From Beroe forskalii (taxonomy: Eukaryota > Ctenophora > Nuda > Beroida > Beroidae): DNA of 64,000 nucleotides. The translations under genes and the position numbers were made by a program. The notes under the pieces are model-generated. The model had not been told where the DNA came from, did not search any database, and saw nothing but the letters and a program-made list of their open reading frames with translations. The stretch's first letter is position 1, and each line of letters begins with the position of its first letter. Below are positions 1,258 to 32,959 of this stretch, one piece after another. The stretch is taken from contig WFMF01000005.1 of the NCBI GenBank assembly GCA_011033025.1, positions 496,001 to 560,000 of the forward strand. The letters are read 5' to 3'.

Positions 1258-4200
1258 ATAACAGGGTGCTCGAACGTCTTATCAGGGGCTGGCGCAGGTG
1301 GTTCCTTAGGATCCTTCATAAACTTCACAATATCTGCTTCTTTGAATTGCAGAAAGAAATTGAAGGTTTTAAATGAAGAAATGACAGGTTCTAAATGGAG
1401 AAATGAAGGGTTTTAAGGGAAGAAATGACAGGTTTTAAATGAAGAAATGACAGGTTTAAATGAAGAAATGAAAGTTTTAAAACGACAGTTCGAACTTTTG
1501 TGCGTCTTTTGTGCGCGCGGCTCTATTTTGCGCGGCGTGTATTTCTGTACGCCGCGCAAACTAAAGACGCGCAGAGTGCAGTTCTAATTGCCCCTGAGAA
1601 TGACAGATAGAATGGTGCCATCAATTTGATTATCTTAGCTTATCTATCATTGCTTAAATCTGAGATAAAATGATAGTTCATAAATTGATAGTGTTTCATC
1701 CAGCAGAATTCGGCAAAAAAAGAGTTTTATTGCCAACTAGTCGCCTGCAGACTTTTTAGGCGCCTATAGGAGTCCATCAACTGCCTATAGGCGCCTTATA
1801 ACGGGTATGTGCATTGATGGGCGTGTTTCGAAGATTCAAACCACACAAATACGCTTGTCACTTCTTCAAGAAAACGTGTAAGTATGTTACAGAGGCTTCA
1901 GATAATTACAATAAAAACCTTACAGAATCATTGGATTAATGTTTCATAATTTAAATCCACAGATTTATCAAACACCAAACAGCGATTGGTAATAAAGTAA
2001 TAAATACCAACAGCTATTGGCTCTGTGAACTATAATTAGAGTGACTTCAGTATCACAAGCTATATATATTTTTTTATTTCGAAGGTTTTACTTCTATTCC
2101 AACAGCTGTACAGCCAATGACAGGAATCGAAGGATTTAAGTGTAATCAAGGCAGTAACGGTTAAGGAAGTGTAATCCATACTTTCTTCGCCCGAGACTTC
2201 GCTGCAATGGGCAGCTCCTCATTTAACCCTCCCGCACAGTTTCCTGTACTCCTGTACGCTCGGCTGAGTGAACCGTCGGGCTGCATAGGCTCAAGATAAA
2301 TCTCTCACCCTTAGATCAGTGGCGCTGGCAGGAATTCGAACTCACTACACCACTCACAAGGCATATTGTTAATTAACGACTCTTATTAATACCTGCCTCT
2401 CAAACTGTGGATGTAATCTGATATAAGCATGTCTATTGTCTAATATACTCCTTTATAATATTTTCACAGGGGTCTAGAGTTTAACACAAAGTACTAATAA
2501 CGTATTAATAACGCACGAGAAAAAGGCGGTTCAACGTCATCAACTCACTCCATTGAGCTGTGATAATGACGTCATCCTACCCGCCTATTTCTCGCGCGCG
2601 GCGTTTAGTTAACAGTTAACACAGTACATTGTGTGGTATATTCCTTGAAAGAAATGATAGTAGAGTTGGGATTCTGAGTGGAAATTGTCAAGTACACTTC
2701 AGTTTTAAGATTCTTTGCGATAATTGATTTAAATTAGTTAATCAATTAATTCGATAAGTCATACAATTATGGACACAATTAATTAGAGTTAAATAGTTTT
2801 GATATGATGCTTAACTAATTTAATTCTCACAATGAGTAGTGTGTTTATTGCGACGACATTAATGATTAATAACCATTATAGCATTACCACTGTTTTTATT
2901 TCTGAAATCCACTACAACAGTATAACACACAAAAAAGAGATACAAGTAATGAACCTAACTGTTGTTTCGTTATGAACCTTCTAACTTCTAATTTTTCGCT
3001 TTATTCGTCTTAAAATTAGCTAACAATGCTATATTGGGGGCTGGGGCTACATTTAATGATAGAATATGTTTTTATCTAATTAGGTGTAATGATGTCATTT
3101 GCTGTTAGCTCATCATCCTAGTGTAATCTAATTATAATACATACTACTGAGTCTGGACCCGTGTATACTGTACACTGTACACTGTATAATCGTATTACAC
3201 TGTAGGAACGCTGAAGACTTCTTTTCTCACCAGCAATGAGCAAATCTCACCTGAACAACCTTACAACCGTCCTCTCCTTCACTCACGCCCACTCTACTCC
3301 CTCACTCAACCCCCACTCACTAACCCCCTCCCCCTCCCACTCACTAACCCCCCAGTCCCCCTCTAACTCCCCCATCTTCCCACTCACCTTGACCCCGAAA
3401 GCGTCCCCCAGGTCTCTGTTGCTTGTCACATCCACTGCAGCTAGCTTCCCAGCCACTTCTTCCTCTCTCATCACTGCTGCACTCACTCAACCCCCACTCA
3501 CTAACCCCCCACTCAACCCCCCCCTAACCCCGCCCCCCTCTAACCCCCCTCTCCCCCTCCTTCCACTAACCTTGACCCCGAAAGCGTCCCCCAGGTCTCT
3601 GTTGCTTGTCACATCCACAGCTGCTAGCTTCCCAGCCACTTCTTCTTCTCTCTCATCACTGCTGCACCCACTCACACCCCTCTCTTACCACTCACTCAAC
3701 CCCCCCTCACTAACCCCCTCACTCAACCCCACTCACTAACCCCCCACTCCCCCCTCTCCCACTCACCTTGACCCCGAAAGCGTCCCCCAGGTCTCTGTTG
3801 CTTGTCACATCTACAGCTGCTAGCTTCCCAGCCACTTCTTCTTCTCTCATCACTGCTGCACCCACTCAACCCCCCTCTAACCCCGCCCCCCTCTAACCCC
3901 CCCTCTCCCCCTCCTTCCACTAACCTTGACCCCGAAAGCGTCCCCCAGGTCTCTGTTGCTTGTCACATCTACAGCAGCTAGCTTCCCAACCACCTCTTCT
4001 TCTCTCATCACTGCTGCACCCACTCACACCCCCTCTCTTACCACTCACTCAACCCCCCTCACTAACCCCCCCCTCACTCAACCCCACTCACTAACCCCCC
4101 ACTCCCCCCTCTCCCACTCACCTTGACCCCGAAAGCGTCCCCCAGGTCTCTGTTGCTTGTCACATCCACAGCTGCTAGCTTCCCAGCCACTTCTTCTTCT

Positions 4201-7200
4201 CTCATCACTGCTGCACCCACTCACACCCCCTCTCTTACCACTCACTCAACCCCCCTCACTAACCCCCCCTCACTCAACCCCACTCACTAACCCCCCCACT
4301 CCCCCCTCTTCCCACTCACCTTGACCCCGAAAGCGTCCCCCAGATCTCTGTTGCTTGTCACATCCACAGCAGCTAGCTTCCCAGCCACTTCTTCGTCTCC
4401 CATCACTGCTGCAACCACTCAACCCCCCTCTTACCACTCCCCCCCCCCCCCCCTCACTAAGTCACTAAACCCCCCCACTCCCCCCTCCTCCCACTCACCT
4501 TGACCCCGAAAGCGTCCCCCAGGTCTCTGTTGCTTGTCACATCCACTGCAGCTAGCTTCCCAGCCACTTCTTCCTCTCTCATCACTGCTGCACCCACTCA
4601 CACCCCCTCTCCCAACCCCCCTCTAACCACCACTCCCCCTCCTCCCACTCACCTTGACCCCGAAAGCGTCCCCCAGGTCTCTGTTGCTTGTCACATCCAC
4701 AGCAGCTAGCTTCCCAACCACTTCTTCCTCTCTCATCACTGCTGCAGCTGCATCGTACTCAGGTTTCATGGCTTTACAGTGGCCACACCACGGCGCGTAG
4801 AACATAACCTGGAGGAAAAGAAAGGAATAAGTAAAATCATGGTGCATAGAAAACGACCTGGTAGAAGGTTGCTAATAATAAACACGTATTTCTTAAAAAA
4901 ACGTGACTTTTACCGTATTGCTCAACTGCATCAGTTGGAAGTTTTCAATGAAAAAAGTCAAATTTCAACATAGCGAATGGGTCCGTTACATAGCTTCATC
5001 CCCCCCCTAAGAAAAGGGGGGGGATGAAGATTTTGGGTCAGATAAGGCAGGTGGGGGGTTGCCCTAATTTCAACGATTCTGGGGGGACTTGGACTGGAGG
5101 GGGGAGTGAAAAAATTAAGGGGGGGATTGGGATCTGGCAGAAGAATTTCAAAATTTGAGATGAAAATCCTATTTCCGTGAGAAATATTTTTCTCCGACCT
5201 CTTGGTTGGGGGCTGCGCCCCAGACCCCGCTATCTTTTGTAAGACTGCCAAATAACTACAATACTTCAATTGCCTGCCATTTTCAAGTGAAATCAACTTA
5301 ACTAATGTGTTTCTATGTTTCAATATTGTGTTGACAATATCCCTGAGACTTGCTTTCATGCCATGATTCCCTTACAAGTGTCACTTGTAATTATATTCAA
5401 GGATTAATTTACATTAAAATTGAACTTCATTACCATTTCAGTCATTAGCAATATTATATGTTAAAACTCAAAATTGACTAAATTTCTTGTCTGTCAGCCA
5501 CATATCATAGTTAACATACTTTCATCTTGTCATAAAGTTTTTAGTTTCGATTGATTCTATTGTAAACATTTCAATGGACATATCTGAGAAAGTTGTCTAA
5601 GTTTTTGGTGGGGGGTTGGTCGAATTTTTGAAATTCAGGGGGCGGGTGGCCAAAAGGGGGGGGATTGAGGATTTTGAAAATTCAGGGGAGGTTTTGTCAA
5701 GGGGGGAGTTAAAAAATTCAGGGGGGGGATTGGACCCAGGATGAAGCTATGTCCGTTAAGCTTGTACCTGGAGGCACAAGGTTGTTAAAGTGTTAATAAT
5801 AAACACGTATTATTACAAATATGTAACTTTTAACCGCAATTTTTGAACAAGGATTTAATACAGACGTTCGATAAAAAAAATCACGCATTTTGTAGATAAA
5901 TATGAAGCTTTTTTGTCTTTTTTTGTACTCCCCTGTTGCCATGGGTTGGCTTGTAGTCAGTTATTAACATATCAATTGTACCCATAAGCAATTGTGCTAA
6001 GTGGTGTCGACGACTCCATTAACAATAGTATCAATCATACCTAATAACTATACTTTAGGGCCACAAGCGCTGCATAATGAGCTGTTGTTGATATTCGTTT
6101 TTATTATTATTCTATATTATTATTCAGATTATTATATTTCCCTTTATATCCCTTTACTTTGATATAGTTATTCCCCCGTGAATATAACTTTCCCTTATAT
6201 CTGAATATAAACTCAACATACTCTTCCTTCCTAGGCTAGATGGTTCGTTACCCCTGATAAAGTTCTTTTCATTTGGTTCTGGGTTCCGGTTTACGCTTCC
6301 ACTATAATTATCTCATGGTAGCAGGAAGTGGTTTAATTGATAATGTAATCTGAAATAGCGTATTCAGAATGTGATGTTTTTTGAAATGAGAAAATATGTA
6401 TTGTAGTGACCAAAATGAAATGTATTTGAAGGCTTGTATTTGTGCTATAAAACCTGAAAGTAATATGTTCAGAGTGTAATGTATTCTGAAATTTGAAAAT
6501 GTGAATTGACTAGATCTACCATATAATCTGAAATACTGTTTTCAGAGTGAAATGTTTCTGACATTTTCTGGCTAATGTGAATTGTAATGAACAGGCCGAA
6601 ATGTTGTACTTCAAGACTTGTATTTCAATTAAAGACTATATTTGCTGTTAAAATTGAAATAGTGTATTCAGAAACTGTTAAATTCTGAAACTTGGAAGAA
6701 TGTATTCAAAATTTCTAGAGAAGTAGAGAGAAATGCTTTTTCTAATAAGGGTACTTAGTAATGTATTGTGTGTACAGAATTGGTCATGTCGTGCGAATTG
6801 ATTGATAGTAAATGACTGGATTACAAACTTGTATTTAGATTATGGCAATTGTTAAGTGGGCAATATATTGTTGAATTTGACATTTGACAATTTCGAGGGC
6901 TACAATTAAAAATGTCGTGTTATGATGTAAATTTGAAGGTTTAAAACCAAGTGTACTGTAATTCTGAATATGATAATAGACATTTGACAGTGATTTAACG
7001 GCTGTAAACAAATAATGAAGTATTAACCATATTTCTGGGAATGTACTGTAATTCCAGGAATGTACTTAAGTACATTGATGTAACAGGACGTATTAAACAC
7101 GTGCCAGATTTCAAGGAATGGTAGTAGTATACCAGGTATACATTATACATGAAATGTATAGAAATGTATGGTATGTATGGGACTTTTTACCATTAATACA

Positions 7201-10200: not shown

Positions 10201-13200
10201 ATGTATGCAGATATAATTGACTGACCAATACACTGGCGTGCTCCTCAATGAAGGGTTGGAAAGTGTCTGAAGTGAGATGTGCTACAGCAGTGTCTGGGTC
10301 CTCATCAGCCCAAGCCACCTCCTTCTCCTCCTCCTTCTGTTCCACCTCAGCTACTGGGTTCTGGAGCCACGTTACAATGCCTGGAGGAGTAGAAATATAA
10401 CGGGTTCTGTAGCCAAGTTACAATGCCTGGAGGAGTAGAAATATAACGGGTTCTGTAGCCAAGTAACAATACCTAGAAGATAGGAATTACTGGGTTCTGT
10501 AGCCACGTCACAATACCTGAAGTAATGTAACTAAAAGCTACTGGGTTCTGTAGCCACGTTACAATACCTAGAATATAGGAATTACTGGGTTCTGGAGCCA
10601 CGTTACAATGCCTGGAGGTGGTAATTACTAATCAGCTACTGGGTTCTGTAGCCATGTTACAATGCCTGGAAGTTAGGAATTACTTATCTGCTACCGGGTT
10701 CTGTAGCCACGTGACAATACCTGGAAGCATTATAGTAATTAGTAATTACTTATCAGCTACTGGGTTCTGGAGCCAAGTTACAATACCTAAAAGAATTATA
10801 GAAATTAGTAATTACTTATCAGCTACTGGGTTCTGGAGCTACGTTACAATACCTGGAGGAGTAAAAATAACTAGGAGAGTAGAAGAGTAGGGATATATTG
10901 GGTTCAGTAGCCAAGTTACAATGCCTAGAAACATGCGTATGTCACAGTGCGCGCAATTCAATCAGTCGAAAGAAGGTGGCCTTTTAATACGCGTTTTTAT
11001 CAATCGATCCATGGGTAATTTCCACTGACCATCTGCAGTCCTGTCTCCACTGAACTTGAACTGGAAACTCCCTTTCTCGAAGTAGAGGATTGTCGGGAAG
11101 CTGGTTACGTTGTACTCCTGGGTGGCACCCGCCCCTTTGGCGCCGTCCGCATCAACCCCAACCAGCACTGCTTTACCTGCGGTACAATGTAATTAGGTTA
11201 CACAGTGTAGATTGTATAGTGTACAATGTTTAACAATAAACAGTGTACTTTGTACATTGTTCAGTGTACAGTGTACATTGTACACGGGACAGTATACAGT
11301 GTACAGTATACAATGTACATTGTACACTGTAAAGTGTGAAGTGTACACTGTACAGTGTACATCCACCCCTACTAGTGTTTCTTTACATGGTTTATGGAGT
11401 CTCCAACTTATCGCGTAAACTATTTGCATTGTGCACATTACACATTGTATAATTGACACTACCTACTGTGTATACTTGACACTACATACTGTGTGTACAT
11501 TGTGCAGCATGAACCGTAGCAGAGTAGAAGCATGAATAATTGAAAGGTATGTTTAGTAACTGTGTGGGCAACAAAGAAAAGCAGCTGAACAGATTAAAGC
11601 TGTCAGTTTAATGGCATAACACCAAGTTCTGTAAGACCAAGTTCTGAAATAATGCTCATTATTCCGAACACATGATTTTCTGGTAAGTTTCAGCCACAAA
11701 AGTTAAAGAGTCACATCCAGTGGTCACGCTTGGACAGCATTCCAATACATCTGAATAAATTAATAAATCGCACTAAAATCGCTTGATGATAGATTTAAAC
11801 CTTACGTCATTGCATCTTCTGTCAACGGCAGTACGCCTTAAGTCAACAGCTGGACGTTTGTTGACAGTGACATTAAGTCTAAACTTTATTATATTGCACA
11901 ATCAAGCTTCACAAGCAATAACCGACCTTTGAAGTTTGTAGCAATTTGGTAGTGGTAGTCACTAGTAAGTGACGTCATTATCAGGGGCTCAGAATGGTGA
12001 GTTGATGACGTCATTATCATGGCTTAGAATGGTGAGTTGATGAAGTCATTATCATGGGGGTTAGAGTGGTGAGTTGATGACGTCATTTTCAAGGTTTAAA
12101 ATGGAGAGTTGATGACGTCACAACACGTAATTCTAAGTTTCTGTCTTTCATAATACTGCCATATTAGAACGCTACCGGTTGGTTTTATATACGTGGAAAT
12201 CTAATGCTCTAATCGTTTGGTTACTCGGTACAAAGTTAAAGTTTTGACTTTAAAAATGGTATACCTACAAACTTCGCTAAACGCCTTTTTCTCGTGTCTA
12301 TGGAGAACTGATTAGATAAAAACCGACTTACTTTTAAATAGGTCACAACACACCAAAACACTCTTAACAAGGCTCTAATTGGCTGTGCCTACCACCACAT
12401 ACTTAGCTACCACACTCTTACTCTCTTATTGATGTGAGGTCTATAAGCTCTATAATGGGTTCACGCCGACCGTTTATCTCTTCACACCACGGACAGAAGG
12501 GATACGAAAAGGAGGAAAACGTGCGACGTTATCCTGCTTTTTAAAAGTTTAAATACGGAATATAGAATTTAGGGGTTGTAGATAATTATAAATACCTCTA
12601 CTACCACTTTACCGTATATCTGAGTTTAAAAATCTTCTTTTGTACTTTTGTACTAACCGCTAAACGTGGCAGAATACCAGTGTCAAATTCATAGGTACGT
12701 CGGTATCGAAGTACCGAGTGTATGCTTGGCTAAATTTCATTGCTTCATTGCCACATATGAGCTGACTAGTCGAATGAGTATTGCTTGAATCATGTCTAAA
12801 GGTGAAGCAAAAGATAAGCTTTTAAAGGTATTAACGGTTATAGCCAATACATATAGTTCAAAGTGCTCTGTTCATTAGCAAACGGTTGACATTTGCGCCC
12901 CTTATGATGCACCATTGTGTATATTTACGCTGTGTAATTATGATTGACAGTTGGAATGACGTCATTATCAGGGGTTTACGTGATCACTTGATGAGATTGG
13001 TATGCCTGTCATATAGTGTACAGCGTACGCAGTATGGAATCGATTCTAAGAACACAGTGATCTTGGAAATACCCGAAATAACCTTGTGAGTAGACTTGGC
13101 AAATTGACCAGTGGTTGAGACGAGCTAGACAGAAACGGAACGGAATCTGATTAAGAAACTTTCTCATGATTTCTCTTGGGATTTGATCAAGTAATGTCGT

Positions 13201-15607
13201 GAATGATAGGATTCGTCTTCGATATTTCGTAATTATAGATTGGTTAAAAAAAACGGTGACAAGTCCAACTCAAAATGTGATCGTCCGCAAACAAAAAGGC
13301 TGTGCACGTAGGAGTTTGACACGACCTAGTAACCTTACATCTGGGATACTTCGTGCTTTACAGTTTGGGTAAATTAACCTTCGTAGCTATGATTTGGGTA
13401 AATTAGTAACCTTTCATCTGGGTTGCTGCGCTGTTGAACTCTGGCTTCATTTTCTTGCAATGTCCACACCATGGCGCGTAGAACATCACTAGAACGGGCT
13501 CTTCAGTCTTACGCAGCAACCTGCAACGTATGACAAAGTTAAAAGAGAACATCACTAGAACGGGCTCTTCAGTCTTACGCAGCAACCTGCAACGTACGAA
13601 TAAGTTACACAAGAACAGGCTCTTCAGTCTTACGCAGCAACCTGCAACGTATACGAAAAAGCTAAAGATGATGGCATGCAAACCCTTAAATACCTACAAA
13701 AAGGAGGAAATTTTTTAATTTCTATGGAAACTATGTTAGTAAGAAACATACGAAAATCGTAATCAACGCAAGAATGTGATATGTTTTTGATAAATTCTCA
13801 AAAAATTTTTTCTGCGTTTTTAAGTGCTGACGAAGGTATCAAGCTTGAATTGAGATGGTATTCCGGGAAATTTGTACCAGAATTCATTTTTCACATAATC
13901 ACACTTCAAAATTTACCTCTTGAATCCAGGGAAGTCCAGGTGAACCACGTCTCTGGCAGCATCGTCCTCCACCCACGGTAAATCACCCTTAGGATCCCTC
14001 AGGAAGTTTTCCATGGATTGATAAGAATGTTCAAGAATTAGTTCAAGAATTAGTTCAAGAATTAAATAATTAGTTTCTCTCAAGAAATTGTTTCAAGAAT
14101 TAGCTTCAAGAATTAGCTTCAAGAATTAGTTTCTCTAACCAGCTTAGGTAAGAAAGTAGTGTGATGCTGAACTTTAGGCAGGTTCGGTACGATTGCCAGC
14201 TCGGCATAAAAATAGAAATATCGAAATATAACGAGCCGCGCAGCCGTACCAAACCTAGAAACATACCGAACCTGATTTTCAGCAATTCAAAATAAGTTCA
14301 GAGAAACAAGTTAACAAAAAGTTAGAAAATTTTGAACAATTCAGACAATTGAAATATTTTGAAAATGACCCCTCACCATGGATTGCAGAGTCTCCTTCCT
14401 GTCGTATTCCTTGTTGAATTCTCCATTGCTGTAGTGGTACAGAAGATGGGGCTTCGGCGTTATCTGGAGATTGGAAATACAATAGGATGAAATCCCTCAC
14501 ATAAGCACATATATTGATAGCTCTAAGAAGTCCTAATTAGCTCTAAGCAGTCCTAATTCATCGCATCAAGTAACCATTGTCGATGAAATTCAAATCAAGC
14601 AGGATTTGCGTTCATTTTCTGTTCAAGTTTCACGAGTACTTATTTTCCTTTGCCAGTGGTTATCCCTAAATCAAAACAATGTAAGCCACGCCAAATCATG
14701 TAAAGATGTTCCAAAAACACTTCTACGATCCATTAAATGCCGCGCACGATGAATAGGCGGTTCAATGCCATCAACTCAGTACATCGTGATATGATAATGA
14801 CGTCATCCTAACTGCCTATTTCTCGTGAGCGGAGTTTAGTTACCCAATACCCAATCTTAACAATACACGTAGTTTATTACACGTATACATTAGTTGAATT
14901 ATTGTTGGAACCTCTTCCACCATTCTTAAGTGTAAACTTTGAATAAAGGGTAAATATTGAATTAAGTGTAGAATTTGAAGAATTTTCATTAATTCTATTG
15001 TGTGGCCCATAAAACAATTATCCAATATTTAACATCGAGGGCCCAGGCACATCATCGTCCATTATTAATTGTAACCCTACATCAACCCTTTTTGTAAAAA
15101 CAAAAAGGCAGGAGGAGGCGGGACAAGCGAACGAACCTTGAGTTTCTTACAGAGCTTTGAGGCCTCGGTGCAGTCTACAGAAATGACTGATGCAAGACCC
15201 CGCATGCTGATGGAAACGTCATCCAGAATAGCGGACAGCTTACTTGACTTCTTGCTGTCCTGAGGTGATATTCTGGGTTAGGTATGAGCAAATACTAAAC
15301 AGTGTGGTTCTTGCAACAGAAAAAGGGCGTTTGGGATATTGCATATATAATAGGGATGATTAAATTTATAGAAATTTAATATTGAGAAAATAATATATCT
15401 ATCTTACAGTAGCGGCAATTTGAAAGAATTTGAATACTTAAATGTGGGCTATCTGTCCTTGGTAAAGAGAGCAAGAACATTGTTCTTGGTTCTGAGTTCC
15501 TTCTTCCAGTCCTTCAAATCATCAATGTGGATAATTTCACTGGTCTTTGTTTTCTTTGTGGAGACAGCAGATAAAGCTACCAACAAAACCAATAAACGAA
15601 GAAACAT
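1258..15607 (-). CDS. PDIA5: PDIA5-like protein disulfide isomerase (partial, 3' end incomplete)
   Basis: This gene encodes an ER-lumen thiol-disulfide oxidoreductase that forms and rearranges disulfides in secretory proteins. Exons on the minus strand are 15607-15458, 15259-15137, 14463-14377, 14011-13917, 13520-13411, 11176-11030, 10380-10226 and 4808-4653. Together they give 341 codons in one frame. Exon 1 starts [16 protein letters not shown], a signal peptide. Exons 1-3 form the PDIA5-type non-catalytic N-terminal domain. The exons at 13.4 and 4.7 kb each carry the thioredoxin motif [10 protein letters not shown]. The linker exon near 10.3 kb is acidic ([17 protein letters not shown]). 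A further piece at about 1258-1345 reads [20 protein letters not shown], matching the linker before the third thioredoxin domain. The exon expected between it and 4653 (the FPT..KYF part) was not found, nor the last catalytic domain. Introns after exons 1 and 3 lack a normal dinucleotide at one end. The start has no upstream in-frame alternative that fits a signal peptide. The family call is firm; whether the gene is intact is uncertain. Confidence 0.88.
1350..1480. repeat. Tandem ~26-bp repeat in a candidate polypyrimidine tract
   Basis: GAAGAAATGACAGGTTTTAA recurs about five times. On the minus strand it reads as a repeated pyrimidine-rich tract directly upstream of the PDIA5 coding piece at 1258-1345, so it may act as a multiplied 3' splice-site tract. 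Confidence 0.6.
1488..1600. mobile_element. Small foldback element, GCGC-rich
   Basis: The termini are imperfect inverted repeats (CAGTTCGAACTTTTGTGCGTC on the left, GACGCGCAGAGTGCAGTTCT on the right) around a CpG-rich centre. A related, internally duplicated copy lies at 51178-51420. No coding capacity. Confidence 0.5.
1757..1798. repeat. Perfect short hairpin
   Basis: TAAGGCGCCTATAGG-type arms at 1757-1770 and 1784-1798 are separated by 13 bases. Each arm contains the palindrome AGGCGCCT. Nothing else recognisable was seen in 1600-2190. Confidence 0.6.
2190..2345 (-). repeat. GC-rich island with a tRNA-like B-box, possible SINE fragment
   Basis: On the minus strand GAGTTCGAATTCCTGCC resembles the polymerase III B-box. 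It is followed by a GC-rich body in an otherwise AT-rich intron. No convincing A-box or cloverleaf could be drawn, so this is at best a SINE relic. Confidence 0.25.
2511..2611. mobile_element. CRE-palindrome MITE, copy 1
   Basis: The ends CGCACGAGAAA.AGGCGG and CCGCCTATTTCTCGCGCG are inverted. The core holds CAACGTCATCAACTCA and GATAATGACGTCATCC, which includes the perfect CRE octamer TGACGTCA. The flank GTTTAGTTAA is part of a longer terminal repeat seen in other copies. It lies in the last PDIA5 intron. The AT-rich stretch 2612-3230 shows nothing else. Confidence 0.75.
3380..4652 (-). repeat. Tandem array of a PDIA5 exon end plus its splice donor (8 copies)
   Basis: GACCCCGAAAGCGTCCCCCA (minus-strand exon end) begins at 3391, 3574, 3770, 3928, 4125, 4323, 4502 and 4656. 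Spacings are 154-198 bp. On the minus strand each unit has about 95 bp of exon (from around GCAGTGATGAGAG to GGGGTCAAG), then a donor GTGAGT (GTTAGT in two units), then C/G-skewed intron. Only the rightmost unit is joined to the exon start with the CGHC active site. The exon part is strongly conserved, while the spacers vary more. Long open frames on the plus strand here are antisense to the array. Confidence 0.92.
4989..5750. mobile_element. Non-autonomous DNA transposon with 13-bp TIRs
   Basis: Inverted termini CATAGCTTCATCC are perfect when the base at 5751 is included. They are flanked by the direct repeat TCCGTTA (4982-4988 and 5752-5758; 8 bp GTCCGTTA if the G is counted). The body is G-rich, with repeated AAAATTCAGGGGGGGGATT motifs and an internal hairpin just inside the left end. 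No transposase frame. A 7-8-bp duplication suits P-like or hAT-like elements, but the superfamily is not established. Confidence 0.8.
6086..10096. mobile_element. Pair of 190-bp direct repeats around a 3.6-kb non-coding interior
   Basis: The segments 6086-6275 and 9907-10096 start TGTTGATATTCG and end TTCTTTTCATTTG. They have equal length and are roughly 94% alike by eye. The interior lacks any gag, pol or long frame. It holds diverged repeats of an AATGTATTCTGAAA type motif (6300-6960) and a GC-rich patch near 7540-7760. This could be a non-coding LTR derivative (LARD-like), but no flanking target duplication, primer-binding site or polypurine tract was identified. It sits in a PDIA5 intron. 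Confidence 0.45.
10381..10930 (-). repeat. Tandem array of a PDIA5 exon start plus its splice acceptor
   Basis: On the minus strand the acceptor and exon start CCAG|GCATTGTAACGTGGCT, followed by exon bases to about CAGTAGCT, is repeated next to the real exon 10380-10226. Including the real one there are eleven copies of the TTACAAT(A/G)CCT signature between 10371 and 10925, spaced about 40-70 bp. Several copies keep an intact AG acceptor. They lie upstream of the exon in transcription order, so they could compete as 3' splice sites. Confidence 0.9.
11177..11470. repeat. TGTACA-rich self-complementary low-complexity tract
   Basis: Interleaved GTACAGTGTACATTGTACAC motifs can pair within and between themselves, which creates open frames on both strands with no coding meaning. 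A short similar tract occurs at 3165-3205 and at 54720-54790. Between 11470 and 11960 nothing recognisable was seen. Confidence 0.65.
11968..12121. repeat. Minisatellite of a CRE-containing core
   Basis: About four units of roughly 46 bp carry GTGAGTTGATGACGTCATTATCA. The unit matches the core of the dispersed CRE-palindrome MITE in reverse orientation, so it probably arose by amplification of that core. TGACGTCA is intact in three of the units. 12122-13400 shows no gene; a lone related motif is at 12957-12975. Confidence 0.8.
13521..13660 (-). repeat. Two extra copies of a PDIA5 acceptor and exon start
   Basis: On the minus strand the block ACGTTGCAG|GTTGCTGCG, followed by the exon start up to the segment coding KTEEPVL, occurs three times. 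Two copies lie upstream of the functional exon at 13520-13411. The middle copy continues to the ATGTTC codons before diverging. Each upstream copy keeps a full acceptor. Confidence 0.9.
14030..14130. repeat. Tandem TTCAAGAATTAG repeat beside a splice junction
   Basis: TTCAAGAATTAG is repeated about seven times on the intron side of the PDIA5 exon at 14011-13917. This is where an ordinary acceptor would be expected, yet no AG precedes the exon's homologous codons. Confidence 0.7.
14739..14840. mobile_element. CRE-palindrome MITE, copy 2
   Basis: Termini CGCGCACGATGAATAGGCGG and CTGCCTATTTCTCGTGAGCG surround GATAATGACGTCATCC. The right flank GAGTTTAGTTACC matches the extended terminus of other copies. 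It lies in a PDIA5 intron. Confidence 0.72.
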
Positions 15608-17674: not shown

Positions 17675-17798
17675 GACTAAACCAAAGGTATGAACTGCAG
17701 TATTGAGCAAATTACATTCCACAAATTTAATACTTTAAATTTGAAGCATTATGATAAGAAAAAGTTTCCTGTGATGCAACTCAATTGGGCAATACTTC

Positions 17799-18760: not shown

Positions 18761-20061
18761 TTGCACCCTGGTTGGGGAAAACAACATTCTAATAAGTCAT
18801 AATTATAATTATAATTATTCATTTCTAGATGACTATATATATTTGTTTTTCGGAGAAGAAAAATTGAAAATTGTTTATATAAAAACACAGCAGTGAATCA
18901 AACTAACTTGATTGATTGACCAATTCCATTCAATTGACAGATGTTTTGTACAAGCCCCCATCTTTTAAACCCTTATATGTCTAGATCGGAGATTGAATTT
19001 AAATAAATTATGTTGCAACATAATTTCTGGTCTTTTGTGCTTCATACAACAAAACACTATCGCATAGTTTTGGATGTTGCTTGGTCTGAATGAATTTTGA
19101 TATTCCTCTTGTGATGTTTTTATATTGCTCTTTTATATCCCTCTTTATATTCTTCTATCTTTATCTTTTATCTTTATCTTGAATTGCTTTCTGTCCATAT
19201 GTTGTTAGATTACTTCTTATGAAAGAAGATACTACTATTGAACTTTTAAATATATTGATTATATATAAAATCTTGATTTTGGCTCTTTATCACTTCAATT
19301 GGAAAAAGCAAATTCAAGGAAAAAGCAAATCATAGTTCTTTTCTTTATTATACACACAAATCAACAATAACTATAATATAAATGACTGTATTAGTATCCC
19401 AAATATAATATAAATTACTGTCATATTACCTCAATCAATGGATGGAGCTGAATAGCATAATTGTCATTTCTTAGTTGTTTGGCATAAATTGGTAAAATAT
19501 TTACCTCATTTCATTTATCAATTAGTCATTATGTGTCTTCTAATAGGATAACAAGACCAGCATCACTGTCCACCAGCTTAGAGAGTGGCACTCCTTTAGG
19601 GTAATTAGGCAGACCATCTCACTGTGCAGAAATAGGGAGACAATGATGCTTGGTGCTTATAATTGCCCACTTGAGATAACACAAGTAGACAATTTTGGAC
19701 TTTTGGGTAGGGTGTTAGCAGGTGGAAATTTCATAAAATGAAAGTTAGGAAAAGTTGTTTTGATATTAAGGAAGTCATCATATTGTACAATATCCCTAGA
19801 ATAAGTTTATTGGGGTAATGAACTTCTCAGGATATTTAACCAATTCAGGAAGGTGCCATATTTGATAGAATACTTTTAAAAATTGGGTGATAGCTGCTTA
19901 TTGACAAAAGTATGTGACATTTGGCATAGTAAGGGAGCCACTCTCAAGTGGGAGTCTAGTGACATACCAGATTATGAACTTTTTTGGGGATCTAGTTGCA
20001 GGAGCAGACTTAAAAGCAGTGTTTCTAAAGTTCAATTGATTTGTATCATTATTTACTAGGA

Positions 20062-21495
20062 ATGGTGGAAGCTGTTGATCCACCTACAGTTGATACCCCT
20101 GTGGAAACAAAACATCCTGAAGCTAAAAAACCAATCATAGAAGAAAGAATTGAAGTTCCACCAATGGAATCACCTGATAGTGATGGTTATGAGACAGACC
20201 TTGAAATTGAAGAAGAGAAGACTAATTATGATACTACAGGAAGAGAGATATATGTTAACCAGTGTAAATCATTAAATATAATTCCTGTCAGCTATTTTTT
20301 GCGACACATGCAATCAAGTGAAATTCAAATGTCTCACCATGGATTAGGTTCTAATGGAACTAAAGCTATTGCTCTTGCCCTAGTTAATAATACAACTGTT
20401 TTAAAGCTCAACCTGTCAGATAATGCTCTTGAGGCAGAAGGGGCTCAACACATTGCAAACATGCTAAGAGAGAACATTTTCATTACTACAATGGATTTGA
20501 GTGAAAATAAATTGGGAACTGCTGGAGCAAAGTGCCTTGGGGATATGATGCACATAAATGTTAATTTAAGAGAAGTCTATTTATCTGGTAATTCTTTCAC
20601 TGACAAAGATATTGAGCACTTTGCAGAAGTGATGAAAGAATTTAGATTAACACATTTTGATTTGAGTCGCAATAGTATTGGAGAAAAGGGTGGATTACTT
20701 CTTGGACCAGCCATTGCAGCTAATGAAAGCCTTGAATACCTCAACCTTTCCTGGAATAATATTAGAAGGAAAGGTGCAATAGCAGTGGCTAATGGACTTA
20801 AGAATAATGTTATGCTAAAGCATATGGATTTGTCATGGAATGGCTTTGGGGATGAAGGTGCTGTTGCAGTTAGTGAAGCATTGAAAAACAATACAATTAT
20901 ACAATGGTTAAATGTCAGCCATAATAGAATAACTTCAGAAGGTGTCAAATTTATAGCTCGGAGTTTTGAAGCAAATGAAGGAATAAAATATTTTAACATA
21001 GCTCATAATCCTATAGGATCACCAGGAGCTTGTCAACTTCTAGAGAGTGTTGGTAAAAACAGCAGTTCTGTGATAGAAACTCTAGATATCTCCAATGTAC
21101 GAGTTGATGAAGAACTTTGGTCAGCCCTTAAAACATCAAAACAGACACTTCCTGAAATGAAAGTTATCCATCAACCATATATGGAAGGCAGAAAGAAGCC
21201 TAACCCAATTGCATCATTGAAAGAATGGTTGAGTCATAACAAACATTTTGAACTTGTTGAAGTATTCAAGCGCTTTGATGAAGAAGAGAGCATGGAAGTT
21301 TCCAAAGAAGTCCTCATGGATGCTTTTCAGCAGGCACATTTGCCATTTGACAAAGCAAACATGGAACTACTCATAGATCAGTTGGAAGAAGGAGGAAAAG
21401 AAGTTGTAAATTACTCATCTCTGATGGAAACTGATCAGATGAAATGGCTTGATGACTGTTTGGCTAGATATAATGCTAATAATCCTGACTCATGA
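20062..21495 (+). CDS. LRRC74A: LRRC74-type leucine-rich-repeat protein
   Basis: The 477-residue product starts MVEAVDPPTVDT and has an acidic N-terminal stretch (YETDLEIEEEKTNYD). It then carries about nine ribonuclease-inhibitor-type leucine-rich repeats between residues 80 and 370, with repeat cores LNLSDN, MDLSENKLG, VYLSGNSF, FDLSRNSIG, LNLSWNNI, MDLSWNGFG, LNVSHNRI and FNIAHNPIG. The C-terminal 90 residues look like degenerate EF-hand helices (FKRFDEEESMEVSKEVLMDAF), as in LRRC74A/B. Such repeats are protein-interaction surfaces; the cellular role is poorly known. The reading frame is a single uninterrupted exon, unusual beside its intron-rich neighbours. TTTACTAG just before the ATG could be an acceptor for a 5'-UTR intron. 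AATAAA at 22176 may be its polyadenylation signal. The assignment to LRRC74A versus B is not settled. Confidence 0.85.
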   Translation: MVEAVDPPTVDTPVETKHPEAKKPIIEERIEVPPMESPDSDGYETDLEIEEEKTNYDTTGREIYVNQCKSLNIIPVSYFLRHMQSSEIQMSHHGLGSNGTKAIALALVNNTTVLKLNLSDNALEAEGAQHIANMLRENIFITTMDLSENKLGTAGAKCLGDMMHINVNLREVYLSGNSFTDKDIEHFAEVMKEFRLTHFDLSRNSIGEKGGLLLGPAIAANESLEYLNLSWNNIRRKGAIAVANGLKNNVMLKHMDLSWNGFGDEGAVAVSEALKNNTIIQWLNVSHNRITSEGVKFIARSFEANEGIKYFNIAHNPIGSPGACQLLESVGKNSSSVIETLDISNVRVDEELWSALKTSKQTLPEMKVIHQPYMEGRKKPNPIASLKEWLSHNKHFELVEVFKRFDEEESMEVSKEVLMDAFQQAHLPFDKANMELLIDQLEEGGKEVVNYSSLMETDQMKWLDDCLARYNANNPDS

Positions 21496-22839: not shown

Positions 22840-25800
22840 ATGTCAAGTGGGGAAACCATCGATCCCTACAGTTATGTCTCTCCCCGAAGACCCATTCCTG
22901 CCCTTCCTAAGATTACCAATGACCCTGTCCTATCTCAGAAGATGACTCGTACACGAGCAAAACTTGCTCAGTACAGAAAGAGTAAACTAACCCAAGACAT
23001 GCTTATCAAGACCCTTCATGGTCAAGCTACTTCAAATCTACAAAAAATAACCATACAAAACAGATTGGGTAGCTTGAAGAAACCACCACCATCCACGGTT
23101 TCAGAAGATGGTGAGGGTTCAACCAAACGACCACCACCATTCCCTGATCAGATGATGAGTGATGATCGTCGGATGAGATTGAACTATGAGTTCATGAAGA
23201 AGTGTGTCCAATCGGCCCCCATACCCACAATGTCAGAAGATACCTGGGAGTCCATATTGACAATGATCCCTCCTGAGTTGAGAGAGGAACCATCTTACTT
23301 CCCACTTATTGATTCTCTTCATTTTGAAATAGAAAAAGAATATGAACTCAGTTTAAGGAGGTATAATGTGGCAACTACTCTTCTAAAACCAGATTCAGGT
23401 GGAAAAGTACCTGAAACTAAGATGAAGTTTGATGAAGAGGGCCTTGACTTTTCTACCCCATGGAGAAATTCATATGAAATTGCCAGGGCTAACATAGCAC
23501 AGAGGCTCAATATTCTACACCCTTCAATGCAAACGATTCTGAATCTCAGTCAGAAATATGTCACTACTTTGTTGATTGATTGTTCTAATCTTCGAAAGCA
23601 AGGTCCTATTGATGCTGAAAACATGAAGAACAATGTGATTTTAGATTGTGAGAAAAACGAGGAAAAGCTTATGAATTCATGGTTTCATGAAGTCGTCAAT
23701 ATATTTTACGACAAAAAGTCATTTGCCCATCTGAAAGAAGACCAACAGGACAGTTTCTATAACTGTGTTTCACAACTCATGGCCAATATTCTCCAACAAC
23801 TTCTCATCAACACTATCGAATCTTGGGTTGGTTTGTTCGACCCCAAGGACCAAAATAACCTGCCTCTGTACAAAGTGCAGCTGGTCCTTGAAGAGGGTGA
23901 GATGTGTTTCTCCCCCACTCTAACAGAGCTGGAGGAAATGATAAAAAGCGTTGTGGTGACAGTGTGCAAGAGTCTGCAGAACGTGCCTGGGGTCCAGTCC
24001 TGGTTGTCTGGTGCTGCTACCTTTGTTCCTGTGAAGTCCGGTGTCGAGGCTACCATCATAGACGCAAACACCAAGCTCCTCAGTGAGCGGGTCAAGGGAT
24101 ACTTCCAGTCGCCCAAGGAGCATTTGGAGATGCTGCAAAGCAAGTACCAGTACTTGGTGGATGGGACTGCGCAGAAAGATGTTGAGGAATTTCTGTCAGA
24201 AGATCGTGACCTTGAGGAGCAACTGGCTAAAATCCTTCATTTCAAGGGCGTGACATCAGAGATTGCCTTGGAGGATAGCTATGGTCATTATGAACTAGTT
24301 GATCTCAATGTGGATCAGCTGAAGAGCAGTTTGATGCACATTTCCAACAAAATGGTGAATCAGTTGCTGGATGCTTTGGTGGCCCAGCACTTGAAGAGCA
24401 ATAACGATATCATTGATGAGTTTGAGAACATCAAAACTAAAGCTCTGAAGAAGCCGGAAGATACCCAGGAGATGATTGATTTGATTGGGTTTACCACAGT
24501 TTCAACAACTGAAACTATTCCAAAGCTGGAGAAGAATATTTCAGAGGCTGCCAAGCGACTTCACTTCTTGCTTGATCACTACATCTTCAACGACAATGAG
24601 GTATTTTCAATGGCACAATACATGTTTATTGTAAAATGTTAGTCACTCAATGAAACAAGTTGATGAAACAACTTTTAAATTTTTGGGTTTAAAGTTAATT
24701 TTTCGCCATAACGAATAACGATATGATTATTGCTAAATTCCGTTATTGATGCAACCTAATTAACTTCAGATTGATTTGAATCGTACGACTTTGAATTGGC
24801 CTTCAAAGATTGCGCCCATCTTTGAGGAAAATGATGAAATTGTTGCAGAAGCGAAGAAGGAAGGTATGTATTACAGTATTGTCTAATAATTGTTTCTTTG
24901 GAATCATATCCCAAGTTATTAAAGTGGAGGCTCAAGTCGAATTTCCTTATTGTATGGAAATTTGAATTGATTAAACATGTGACAATATAAAAGTATATAT
25001 TTAAAAAGAGGAACTTTATGTTTTCAGAGATTTTTTCCCAGAGATGCATTGATATTCGGTACTGTAACAATTATTGTTGTTTTCCAAACCTTTCTTTAGA
25101 CTTTTAAATTAATGATACTAGTCGGTTCCCGTCCTACGGACGGCGAATGATGGCAGCCGCATGAGCTAACGGCCACATGTCCCTTTGACAGTGATTTGAC
25201 TGTGCGAGTTTGGAGGGGAAATTCGAAACTTTAATTTCTGCGAAAAAAAGCTTCCCACGCCCCAAACGGTAACCCAATATTGCCGAATATATTCTCAAAA
25301 CCTTTACTCATCATAAGCAACTTGATGGCGGAAGAATTTTCAAAAAATTCGAATTTTAATTTTTCGCGGAAAAAAGGGCGTGGCCTCCCACGCACCTCAG
25401 GGCGACCCAATCATTTGGAAAAAATTCTCAAAAGCTTAACTGATCATAAGCAACTTGATGGCGAAGGAATTTCGAAAAAATGCGAAACTTGAATTTTTGC
25501 GAAAAAAGGGCGTGGCCTCCCACGCCCCTCAGGGTGACCCAATAATTCGGACAAAATTCTCAAAATTTTTATTCATCATAAGCAACTCGATAGCGAAAGA
25601 ATTTTGAAAAAATTCGAAAGTTTAATTTTGGCGGAAAAAGGGCGTGGCCCCTCACGCCTCGGGGCGACCAATATTGCGGGGAAAAATCCTCAAAATTTTT
25701 ATTCATTATAAGCAACACAATGGCGGAAGAATTTTAAAAATTCGAAATTTTAATTTTGCGAAAAAAGGGCGTGGCCTCCCACGTCCCTCAGGGTGACCCA

Positions 25801-26013
25801 ATATTTCGGACAAAATTCTCAAAATTTTTATTCATCATAAGGAACTCGATGGCGAAGGAATTTTGAAAAAATTCGAAACTTTAATTTTGACGAAAAAGGG
25901 CGTGGCCCCACTCCCCTCAGGGTGGCCGCAAAAAAATTCTATATTTTTCTGATTTATTATAACTTTCTTATAACACGATTAAAAATAATTTTGATGCTAA
26001 CCTGAAAACGAAT

Positions 26014-26052
<39 letters not shown>

Positions 26053-29000
26053 TCAAAATTCAACAGGACTCAAATGAAACGACATTTAACTGATCTGGAA
26101 CTTCGATAAGTTACATCTTCTGGGGATTATATAGCTAAAATACACAAACAAATTAGTATCACAGAATACAATATCAATTTAGAAAAGTCAAGTGGTGACG
26201 TACGGTCAGAGCACAGATTAGGTAATTTTTACAATATCATGAATCATTACATCTAAAAGAAAATATTACAATATCAATGTATAACATCCATCTGAAAGAG
26301 TACAATATCAATAAAATAGTTGAAAACATCAAACTTCAAAACATCTGAAAATATAAAAGCAATAAATTAATAAATTAATAAAACCTGAAAAATAATACGG
26401 GGTTAATAACTGAATGAAGCTATGTAAGATATGCAATTAAGCTGACTAGTGTGTACCAGTAATAATCAAAATATAGGAGTGTCTGATAGAAGGGATTTTG
26501 GAATGCTCTGGTGCCTATCTATAGCCATGGGATTACGAGCCATTAATACGCTTATTGGCGATTATTCGTTCATTGCGGATGTTCAGCCCTCCATCTGATT
26601 CAAAAGTTTTAAGTTGGTGCTGCCAATAAGCTTCCTTCTTACTTAGTTTACGAGTTATGCTTTCTTGGGTATCCCATGGTTCAGGCTTAACCTTATCTAC
26701 AAGGGTGACCTTTAGTTCTAGTGCTAGAGTAGCATTGTACTGGGCCTGACTATCTATCCTAAACTTATGAGCCTTATTCTGATTATAATGGACTGCTACC
26801 CTACAACTATTAATCTTTTTTCTTGATGTGACTTTTATGGTTGGAAAATCGAAGTTTCATAGTGCTATCAGTACTGCCTACATTCTGTTTATTACACACT
26901 AAATCAGTAATCACATAAATAACATGCTCATCCTCACAAGAAATAGAATGGTTTATATTATATATATATATATTAACAACACGCATTATATATAGTAAGA
27001 TACTGAATTCCTTAGGTGAAACGCAACTGGGCGATCGTCGGGAGAAGGTGATGTTGGACCTCTCCAAGTTGATGGTAAAAGTTGAGGAGTTCAATGACTG
27101 CGGAGACATGGAAATGATGCAGCAGTATGTCAAGGATGTTATGCAGGTGGGGCAGCAGAATTATAAGATTAAAACGCTCGCACGAGAAATAGGCGGGTAA
27201 TATGACGTCATTATCATAGCTCAAAGTAGTGAGTTGATGACGTTGAACCGCCTATTTCTCTTACGCGTCGTTTAGTTCCTGGATGGGTTACAGGATAAAA
27301 GGATCACCTCAGACTGTATTTTGTTTGACAAAATCAAAACACTGTATCAATGTTTCAACCATATGACTCTGACACACAATTATCTTGTGGATAAGTGTAA
27401 TTTTTAATGGTGGGTGGGATATGAAAAATGAATTGATTGTGTCGTAAATGTTGAAATTTTCCTTTGATTGACCTCCTGTGTTGTGAACAAGATGATATTC
27501 CTCGTGAATGTACTTGTGGAACTAATGAATTGTATGCAAGGTACATTTCGAACATTTCCTGACCGTTTCCGTCCCTACCAGGTTCAAAAGAAGATAAACG
27601 AGTTGACGGGAGAAATAGAGTTTATCAACAAGGAGGAGGAGCTCTTCCAGTGGGAGATCTCCAACTACTGCGAGATAGAACAGGTATTTCTTATAAACTA
27701 GCTTTTTGAGTAGCAAGATAATCATAAATTTGCGCTCAGAATGAATAGGCCGTCGAAATGACGTCATTTACATTGTGCGAGCTAACAATTTGTAGAAAAT
27801 AGCCGCCTATTTATCGTGTGCGGGGTATAATAATCTAAAATTGCGCTATTACCCCCTTTGTGGGTCTGAAATTCCCTCCCCAGTAGAGTGTAATGGGCTT
27901 GGCCAGGAGGTGCAAGCACTGGGTACTGGATATTGCTGCACAGTTTCTAAAGAAAGCAGTGCAAATTCGCAGTTTTCAGGAGCTGATTGTTAAATAATTG
28001 TTGTGCAACCATCCCTGACTGAGTATCATTTGTGATATATATCTTAATATCGTGGCCAACAGATATCCACGATGCTGGAACCCTACCAGAAGCTCTTCAC
28101 TACCGTCCTCAAGTGGCAACGAACGGAAAAGAAGTGGATGGATGGATCCTTCATGGAGCTCGATCCAGAGGATGTAGAGGTAAGTTGCATGCTGGATAGC
28201 CGGCTGGATAGCAAGATAGCCGGTTGTCCAGTCGAATGGCTGGATGGATAGCCAGGTTATCGGATAGCTTGCCGGTTGTCCGGCCGAATATCTGGCTGGA
28301 TAGCCAGGCTATCGAATAGCTTGCCGGTTTTCTGGTTGTGTTGGAAGTTTTCAGCACTGCCGTTAGTAGATCTATAGAATTGACAGTTTACCTTCTTTCA
28401 AAAAGAGAACTGGAGTTACCATGGAACCGTACAGATCTGAGATTGCGATGATTGTTTGAACGAAGCGATGACGTGAGCTCCTAAGAAGTCTTTTTTGCAA
28501 TCTAACGACATTAATTACATATTTCTGAATCCTATATATCTCCAGGCTCAAGTTGAAGAGTTCTGGCAAGAAACCTACAAGATTACAAAGACCTTTGCAA
28601 AGGGCTCCAAGAAGACGGACAGCAAAGACAAGCTGACAGCCACTACAAGGAGAACCTCGTCAATTAACCCTGTAGCTTCCTCCGAACAGGAGGCACAGGA
28701 TGCTTATTCTGTGAGTGCTCAATTAACCTCCCCAATTAGCCTCCCTAATTAACCTCCCTAATTAACCCTGTAGCTTCCTCCGAACAGGAGGCATATGATG
28801 CTTACTCAGTGAGTGCTCGATTAACCTCCCCAATTAACCTCCCCAATTAACCTCCCCAATTAACCTCTTCAATTAACCTCCCCAATTAACCTCGTCATTT
28901 AAACCTGTAGCTTCCTCCGAACAGGAGGCACAGGATCCTTACTCAGTGAGTGCTCAGTTAACCTGGAAGCTTTTTTTTCATCAAAAATCGACAGAATTGC

Positions 29001-32000
29001 GAAAAGTTCTCAAAAATTAAAAATACAATGTTTGATTGAAAAGTGACATTGAAAGTAATGATCTAATTTTTCACATTCAATGCAAGCTTTTAGGCAAGAA
29101 ATGCCACCTGATTCACGTTATAACTTGATCATGCAAAATGTACCTGAAATGAACCCTGCTCAACTATAGTTTGTTGCGACCGATATTATGTTTGATGAAT
29201 ATGAGAATAATATGGCCACGCTGCATTTTTCTCAGTCTTCGTGTATTCCCAATGATTAATGAACGATGATATTATATAATATACGCAATGAGTCTCGACG
29301 AATCTCGGCGATTCATTACAACACACTCGACCAATCAGCTCCCTTCTTTCCCAGGTGTGTCAGCGAGTCCAGAAGAGTGTCAAGGACTTCAAAGGTAACC
29401 TGCCCGTTGTCAGCATCATGTGTAACCCTGGAATGCGGCAGAGACATTGGAACGACATGTCGGGTGTTATCGGCTTTGATATTACACCAGATAGCGGGAG
29501 TACGCTGAGGAAGATGCTGAAACACAACCTAGATCCTGTGTTGGAGGAATTCGAAGGTGAGTAATGTGTGAAACTAGATCCTGTGTTGGAGGAATTCGAA
29601 GGTGATTATTAATCACTAATTAATGATCTTGTGGTTTGCTACGCAAATATAGCAACTTTTGACACTGAAAATATAGCAAAGTTTGCAACACAAAGAATAA
29701 AGAGAAACGCAGAGCTTTTAATCTAAGCTGACAGAACATCAATGGTTAAGCCCGGAAACGTTTTGAGCACTTCGTGCCCCTAGGAAATCGTCAATTAAAC
29801 CATTGATATAATGTCCTCAAATTTGATTGTAATTAGTAGTGTTGCTAAAGTTTATATAAATAGCACAGAAATTGAGGGTAGCTTTCCATCAATTAAATCG
29901 GACAAACAGCACACGCATGACACAGGCTATTTGAAAGCTCCCAACCGAACAAACAAAATATCTCAAAACTTTAAGCTAGTATCACTGAATCCTTTCGACT
30001 TCGATGACTCAATTTTCAACCCTCCTTCTATTCCAGCTATCAGTAACGCTGCAAGCAAAGAGTTTGGTCTGGAACGAGCCATGCAGAAGATGGCAGACGA
30101 ATGGGAAGGCATCTTCTTCAATACCACCCAGTACAGAGATTCAGGTTTGCTTTTTGTTTTTATTTAATTTAAAACCCCTATGCTTTTATGGGTTTCAACC
30201 TACAATAAATGAATTGATCACCATCGTTCGATCGATGATCAACTTTTGTTAGCAATGACTACCCTCGAACATTTATAGTACTCTCAATTGGGTTGTCTGA
30301 CACAGTTAAGTGTCTATGTCCGCATTATTGGATACCATCCTTATCATCATCTCAAAATTTCTTTGCACTCGCAGGAATTTCCATTCTGGCGTCCGTTGAG
30401 GAAATCCAGACGACTCTGGACGATCAGATCATCAAGACTCAGACGATGCGAGGCTCGCCCTTCATCAAGCCCTTCGAGAAGGAAATCCGATCGTGGGAAG
30501 ACAAGCTTATCTTAACGCAGGAGATCATTGATGAGTGGCTGAAGGTCAGTTGTGATTTCAAAAACCGTATCCTTTTAAGTTTTCAGCAGAATTGGATAAA
30601 AATCATGAAGCATAATTATGAAAATAAATAATTATCAGTACTCAATGCTCGAGGCAAGTTCTTATAATCATCGCACCCATTAAATTCTAAAAACACCTAT
30701 CATAATTTGTTACCCAGGAAACTGTTTTGGATGGATATTCCGATATTTACGAATATTTGCTTTTTAAACCGAACATCCAATATTCAATTTTTCAATCCGA
30801 AGTATATTCAATAAAACGATGAATGAGCTTTACACGGAGTAAAATTATTCAACAATTGTCATTTCAGGTCCAATCATGCTGGCTGTATCTCGAGCCAATC
30901 TTCAGTTCGCCCGATATCATGCAGCAGATGCCAGAAGAAGGTCGACTGTTTCAGATTGTCGACAAGAATTGGCGAGATACCATGAAATTCGTTACCAATG
31001 ATCCCAAGGTGGGTACATGCATGCTTAATTACAGTACTTCGCAAGGTGATAGCATGCAATAGCTGGTCACGCGAGTTTGTGACTTGTGTGGCAATGAAGC
31101 AGAATTTTGGAATTTGTGGAGCGCGCGAGCAAATTTTTGCAGAGGTCTTCTTTCCTAATTTGATGTGTTGCCATGGTTATGAGGACTGATAAAGTCATTG
31201 CGCGCGTTGTTTTCATAAGTGCGCGCTTAAATCAAGATTTACAATCTACCACTGTCAACTAATGCAATACATGGATACATTTGAAAGGCATTATCAGTAA
31301 ATTATGCAATTTTCCGAAATTTCGGCGGAATCTACTCTTCTGTAATCTAAGAATCTACACCTCTCTAATCTAAGAATCTACTCCTCTCTAATCTAAGAAT
31401 CTATCTACTCTTCTATAATCTAAGAATCTAACTTCTCTCAGGTCCTTCACGCTACCTCGATGCCAGGAATGTTGGACAAGATGAAGGACAGTAACAACCT
31501 GCTCGATAAAATCATGAAGGGTCTCAACAACTATCTGGAAAAGAAACGTCTCTACTTTGCTCGATTCTTCTTCCTCTCAAACGATGAAATGCTTGAGATC
31601 CTGTCTGAGACCAAAGATCCGACCAGGGTTCAGCCTCATCTCAAGAAGTGTTTCGAGGGTACGTTCTGGAATTGCTTTTAAAGAATGCCGGCATTTTTGT
31701 GAGATTTCCGTGATATGGGTTAAAATGCTAAAATCTTCTACCAAAACTAAAAACCTTTGAATACATACTGATTAATAAGACGTCGTGTTTACACATTATA
31801 ATCATGAATAAACATCGTGATTCACCACCCAAATTACCAATTCACTGATCATGATTTATTACTGAAATGATTTATCATGATAATCATGATATTGTATCGC
31901 AAGTCTGAAGTTCATTGCTCGCATATCTTTGTTGATAGTCATGAATTACCGTCTAATCTTACTATATATAATGCGTGTTGTTAATATATATATATATATA

Positions 32001-32712: not shown

Positions 32713-32959
32713 GTTCGTTTACTGTTATCATTTTTGTTTAGAAGCCCTCTGCGGTACCCTTCATGGGTTTTCAAACAAACGAAGTGAAAAATTGCGAAAT
32801 GTGGTGATAATTACTCAATTAGTCCTCGAGGAGCGGTCAGTAGACTGCTACTTTGGGGGAACGGACATTCCGTCTCACGACATTTCATTTCACGAAACTT
32901 TATTTCGTAATATTTCGACACCGAGAAAAAGTAAGGGTCTGGGTTGGGGTTGGGGTTGA

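Follow-up and report, generated by a model that had tools for sequence, protein, structure and literature searches.

Splice-junction arrays in PDIA5 and DNAH12

We analyzed a 64,000-bp stretch of the genome of the ctenophore Beroe forskalii (positions 496001-560000 of the 1.89-Mb contig C580, in an assembly of 216 Mb and 1134 contigs; hereafter the window), in which splice junctions of two genes, PDIA5 and a fragment of DNAH12, are accompanied by tandem copies of themselves. PDIA5 lies on the minus strand. Two PDIA5-like proteins, both from ~2-kb contigs, share 68% and 61% identity with its spliced model, and no repeat-derived residues were found in them. The DNAH12 fragment lies on the plus strand and aligns to residues 602-1094 of human DNAH12 with two single-residue gaps. 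Neither gap falls at an exon join; this alignment supports the joins, as do the two related proteins for PDIA5. In total, 20 introns were placed in the genes of the window; PDIA5 intron 1 was left unplaced, its canonical donor not being seen, and the acceptor of intron 8 and the donor of intron 9 are uncertain. The arrays and their parent exons, in window coordinates, are as follows.

1-431, minus strand: outermost 7 copies (at 29-431) of the PDIA5 -1398 acceptor array, whose exon lies outside the window
3303-4746, minus strand: donor array of PDIA5 exon 8, 8 copies, parent junction 4652/4653, spacing 154-198 bp, GT in 8/8
4653-4808, minus strand: PDIA5 exon 8 (...FGVK), parent of the donor array, from the exon model
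10226-10380, minus strand: PDIA5 exon 7 (GIVTWLQNP...), parent of the acceptor array, from the exon model
10349-10930, minus strand: acceptor array of PDIA5 exon 7, 11 copies, junction 10380/10381, spacing 44-72 bp, AG in 11/11
13324-13428, minus strand: PDIA5 exon 5 donor 13410 with one decoy at 13333 (6 mismatches in 28)
13480-13661, minus strand: acceptor array of PDIA5 exon 5, 3 copies, junction 13520/13521, spacing 66 and 55 bp
28546-28710, plus strand: DNAH12 exon, parent of the intron 4 donor array, from the alignment to human DNAH12
28653-28950, plus strand: DNAH12 intron 4 donor array, 3 copies, parent junction 28710/28711, with a nested 13-bp repeat
29529-29605, plus strand: DNAH12 intron 5 donor duplicate, 2 copies 45 bp apart, junction 29556/29557
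31894-31914, plus strand: displaced, exact 21-base copy of the exon start at 32579 (intron end 32578), with TT in place of AG
32981-33005, plus strand: exon-sequence copy without a donor, its source near the end of exon 32579-32713

By our arithmetic, a 24-mer match with no more than 4 mismatches has a probability of ~6e-6 per probe of arising by chance within 1 kb on either side, and chance is therefore excluded for the junction copies. The unit of the exon 8 donor array, for example, is made up of the exon edge, the GT and G-rich intron sequence. An earlier note on this DNA had named five junctions with 8, 11, 3, 3 and 2 copies; we obtained the same counts, with the splice dinucleotide retained in 27/27 copies, and, as that note proposed, the copies form arrays of potentially competing splice sites. 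What it described as a displaced acceptor copy at 31.9 kb does match the exon at all of 21 bases, with TT in the position of the AG, and its exon-edge copy at 32.98 kb is indeed exon sequence lacking a donor. Two arrayed junctions were absent from its list, namely the exon 5 donor at 13410 and the -1398 acceptor array.

The exon to which the latter belongs (ESAVVHPLG..., of PDIA5) was located in the sequence adjoining the window, with its start at window position -1398. The array has 36 copies, or 37 with a looser threshold, of a unit that is mostly 46-47 bp long; 7 of the 36 lie inside the window, and the array contains a 255-bp higher-order period. Because the parent exon was found beside the window, the apparently purely intronic repeat at 29-431 proved to be a junction array. 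In the same region, two stretches at window 832-657 and 206-32 are 76% identical and are built of near-identical backbone segments with short patches between them, which makes them a patchwork duplicate. The patches in 206-32 resemble the core of the acceptor array, as if spread by short conversion tracts.

Arrays in dynein genes on other contigs

We assembled a sample of dynein loci on other contigs by a Pfam AAA_6 search followed by extension, and these loci were chosen regardless of repeats. To place the exon joins, we aligned the loci to dynein reading frames from this genome that are free of introns, and splice-site and alignment scores retained 67 of 81 candidate introns, giving 134 junctions. 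Copies with up to 4 mismatches in 24 were found at five of these (3.7%), three on C790 and one each on C489 and C441, while a sixth junction, on C248, carries a copy only when 6 mismatches are allowed. Two further arrays stand outside this count. The acceptor array on C163 consists of 20 copies of a 49-bp unit with the dinucleotide in 20/20, and was left out because its upstream exon is not delimited. The other is the donor array in the second of two adjacent gene copies on C441, which carry 3 and 8 copies of the same 86-bp unit, the eighth being degenerate. Junction arrays are thus present on five contigs (C580, C790, C489, C441 and C163). The 14 that we dissected comprise nine donor and five acceptor arrays, with the C163 acceptor additional, and AG or GT is retained in 81 of their 88 copies, counting the 14 parents.

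The dynein loci also contain features of another kind. A long intronic minisatellite reading EPPRKPKNLPGNLRTSQET occupies index ~2400-4800 of C163_247920 (loci L028 and L048) in a dynein gene and was not seen touching a junction. Besides intron-rich genes for dynein heavy chains there are three that stay open over 3715, 3010 and 1583 residues (at C1024:1425165, C534:80398 and C26:9056), and parts of the C1024 frame share 62-88% identity with the intron-rich gene on C248. These long-frame genes may be retrogenes or lie on foreign contigs.

Repeat density at junctions and within introns

Raw repeat density is no higher at junctions than within introns. Outside the window, copies were found at 5/134 junctions (3.7%) and in 205/4987 intron-internal windows (4.1%), and the corresponding values in the window are 7/38 (18.4%) and 1004/4700 (21.4%). 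PDIA5 intron 3, although placed, was excluded from the density, placement and ratio statistics since the AG is missing at its expected acceptor. Equal density at junctions and in introns is the outcome that the earlier note had itself named as refuting its proposal. After correction for copy number, the junction/intron ratio in the unselected dynein sample is 1.99 (95% interval 0.73-3.34) at 4 mismatches, 1.90 at 3 and 1.67 at 6, and all of these intervals include 1. The corrected ratio in the window is 2.89 (1.30-4.79) at 4 mismatches, in a window that was selected for such arrays.

The earlier note had further stated that the copied units almost always span the junction. This is incorrect: in 19 window introns, only 4 of the 21 arrays delimited by Tandem Repeats Finder (TRF) span one. 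By the same limits, 17/21 arrays in the window and 10/14 elsewhere are non-junction arrays, although the 17 include the -1398 array, which truly spans its junction but was shortened by TRF. The arrays of only two copies at 29557 and 13410 escaped TRF altogether.

Other features of the window

The PDIA5 gene between window 1200 and 4650 lacks most of the exon GFPTVVYFKNGNKTFEHPG that is present in a related protein (the gap lies between the exon 8 donor array and window 1340), and the residues KTFEHP of this exon appear joined after PAPAPD of the next exon, which suggests a local rearrangement or an assembly error. At PDIA5 intron 3, CAATCCATGG occurs at 14376 and at 14011-14020 and the expected acceptor has no AG; this repeat is a possible trace of an intron made or shifted by duplication.

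The DNAH12 copy (27015-32713) covers only the region before the motor. Our Pfam search gave no AAA_6 match on C580 for a motor exon 3' of the fragment, no motor exon elsewhere in the assembly could be attributed to this gene, and outside the window no match exceeded 84% identity to this piece among the matches listed. Given the absence of AAA_6 after the fragment on C580 and of closer matches among those listed, the gene looks incomplete here. C163 was considered as the carrier of the missing motor and rejected, as its best match is DNAH3. Most of the fragment is flanked by a 132-133-bp tandem repeat at 25219-25924 that recurs in the opposite orientation at 32111-32432, and inverted stretches rich in AT lie near 26960 and 31970. 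This arrangement may represent a repeat-bearing mobile element.

A single-exon leucine-rich-repeat gene at 20029-21492 encodes a protein 89% identical to one further protein and 79% identical to a protein of the ctenophore Bolinopsis microptera, while named proteins from other animals are at most 47% identical among the 120 matches listed; these values by themselves make a ctenophore origin of the DNA almost certain. An Rfam scan of the window at the gathering score returned 0 matches.

Origin of the arrays

Local tandem duplications are abundant in the introns examined, some of them take in an exon edge, and array length varies between gene copies. We think that the arrays are probably ctenophore minisatellites of the kind called 'mirage' in amphioxus, that is, the products of ordinary repeat growth that survive at exon edges. 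Small tandem duplications would arise throughout introns regardless of the splice site, presumably by slippage or break repair, since the duplication ends judged by eye show short shared words (~5 bases at C489), none (C790:8911) or filler (13 unrelated bases between the shared parts of the DNAH12 intron 5 duplicate at 29557). Duplications confined to an exon would be removed by selection. Those straddling an exon edge would survive, since a working splice site would still be supplied by whichever copy adjoins the exon body, leaving the mRNA unchanged. Unequal exchange, which is supported by the length differences and the higher-order period, would then expand and rewrite the arrays. A simple decay model without targeting, in which change is allowed in only one member of the pair of exon copies, predicts a junction/intron ratio of 1.53, and the corrected values near 2, with their wide intervals, are not far from this. 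A conserved exon copy would keep its duplicate recognisable for longer, so that junction-spanning duplicates should look ~1.5-fold commoner than intronic ones anyway, and no targeting of junctions has to be invoked.

Several results weigh against this explanation. The pooled corrected ratio, which includes the selected window, is 1.81 (1.08-2.73) at 4 mismatches, 1.75 (1.00-2.61) at 3 and 1.53 (0.87-2.33) at 6. By TRF placement outside the window, 4/14 arrays span a junction where 1.54 would be expected (P = 0.03), and the four spanning arrays in the window compare with 1.99 expected (P = 0.11). Further, the exonic differences among copies of 7 arrays comprise 37 synonymous and 25 nonsynonymous events. 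Neutral decoys would be expected to show 74% nonsynonymous events (P = 3e-8), or 58% if they descend, themselves neutral, from an exon under constraint (P = 0.003), although both P values are too small because the copies share ancestry and are not independent. Three C441 copies (index 1076, 1157 and 1493) and two C163 copies (898 and 945) were dropped from this final count for indels or misalignment, and the exon 8 part was trimmed to 78 bases. The synonymous lean is strongest in the exon 7 array (8 to 2, 11 copies) and in C163 (6 to 0, 18 gap-free copies) and is not seen in the -1398 array (8 to 15). The three tests of density, corrected ratio and placement disagree in part, and a process preferring splice junctions is not established, even if the weak placement excess leaves room for a modest bias. 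The earlier note's proposal that a process repeatedly duplicates splice junctions thus stands as to recurrence, which extends to dynein genes on other contigs, but not as to the preference for junctions.

Such a junction-biased process, for instance breakage or template switching tied to transcription or splicing, would account for the placement excess outside the window and for corrected ratios near 2. It would also fit the arrays lying near or across an acceptor (5/21 in the window, P = 0.035; 5/14 elsewhere, P = 0.10) and the seven non-spanning arrays that end within 40 bp of one. However, there is no excess in raw density, the interval of the unselected sample includes both 1 and 1.5, and the few duplication ends seen by eye have no common position or motif, so we consider this unlikely. 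A different possibility is that the arrays are functional and that selection acts on the decoys, which would serve as alternative splice sites or as coding segments. The synonymous lean of the exon 7 and C163 arrays would suit this, as would the splice dinucleotide, which differs at 8/148 decoy positions compared with 271/1924 other positions. Yet of 84 decoys examined, all with an intact dinucleotide and not counting the C441 copy at 1493, a single one would yield a product in frame and free of stops. This is the PDIA5 exon 5 acceptor copy at 13586, whose use would add 66 nt. The other 83 should disrupt the protein if used and must therefore usually be ignored by the spliceosome, if the genes work; for the same reason we rejected selection on decoys as the meaning of the synonymous bias. 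In addition, the exonic part of the -1398 array, the largest, changes almost neutrally, and AG losses there, counted as events, by our reading match the per-site frequency of changes in the remaining intron part. With P values made optimistic by non-independent copies, functional decoys appear very improbable. Because decoys could hardly be translated usefully, the synonymous bias may, in our reading, reflect rapid rewriting of the arrays from functional, synonymously different alleles. In a bolder and unlikely form of this idea, a copying process favouring transcribed exon-intron boundaries would keep rewriting the arrays, with the working exon edge as its source. The copies would then be young snapshots of functional alleles, hence the mostly synonymous differences and kept dinucleotides, and would amount to a rolling, mostly unusable stock of spare junctions for intron shift or origin.

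The missing PDIA5 exon and the KTFEHP fusion indicate that this part of the contig may be rearranged, and stuttered or collapsed repeats could in principle reflect an assembly or sequencing artefact. Copies within arrays nevertheless differ from one another (at up to 8/28 sites in exon 7), unit lengths vary and the same structure occurs on several contigs. For an amphioxus gene with this structure, the available text of one report describes re-sequencing that argued against assembly error (PMC3902484). We regard an artefact as highly improbable. Finally, the arrays could be intermediate stages of ongoing intron gain or sliding by tandem duplication of AG|GT segments, a route for which the amphioxus authors have published a model, as far as the consulted part of their report goes (PMC3087553). 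The 10-base direct repeat at both ends of PDIA5 intron 3, where exon continuity is as in relatives, would agree with such a history, but that repeat has no AG and no array copy is shown working as a new intron end, which leaves this account with only the slimmest chance of being correct.

Comparison with known systems

In the portions of the amphioxus literature available to us, mirage minisatellites are described in Adh3, the globin genes BflGb6 and BflGb9, PGBD5 and TnC as repeats of exon-intron boundaries on both 5' and 3' sides, in which many, but not all, copies keep AG/GT (PMC3087553, PMC3902484). The same portions report array lengths that are unstable between haplotypes or individuals, even somatically, and normal splicing of the genes concerned (PMC3087553, PMC3902484). 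Read as minisatellites of this kind, the 14 dissected arrays and that on C163 share with what is described there a unit of exon edge, splice site and intron, the involvement of both donors and acceptors, the retention of AG/GT in most copies and a variable unit length. Copy number, which varies between haplotypes in amphioxus, varies here between the neighbouring gene copies on C441 (3 and 8). The Beroe arrays differ from the amphioxus cases, so far as these are covered by the same text, in their host, in reaching 36-37 copies, in having a junction frequency from an unselected sample and in the synonymous bias among copies.

No report of such arrays in ctenophores was found in the limited collection of literature searched. 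The anatomy is known from amphioxus, and what is new is its presence in a ctenophore, the unselected frequency, the copy-number difference between neighbouring gene copies and the synonymously biased differences. A structure of the mirage type is thereby placed in one of the deepest animal branches, at an unselected rate of ~4% of junctions in conserved dynein genes. If this rate held genome-wide, such a genome would by extrapolation contain thousands of decoy splice sites. The arrays also offer a natural experiment on how the spliceosome chooses among near-identical neighbouring sites and on whether tandem duplication of exon edges leads to intron sliding or gain.

In the Rogers model and the potato RdRp case, introns are reportedly gained by tandem duplication of AG|GT-bearing sequence. 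The arrays resemble this model in starting from a local tandem duplication that copies splice signals; it requires, however, a new intron that is absent in outgroups, whereas the arrays show none. Tandem repeats make up 13% of the genome of the ctenophore Hormiphora, according to the part of that report available (PMC8527503). With ordinary intronic minisatellites, the arrays described here share an overlapping size range, the same introns and a similar density, but their unit includes exon sequence, and one copy therefore stays under coding constraint.

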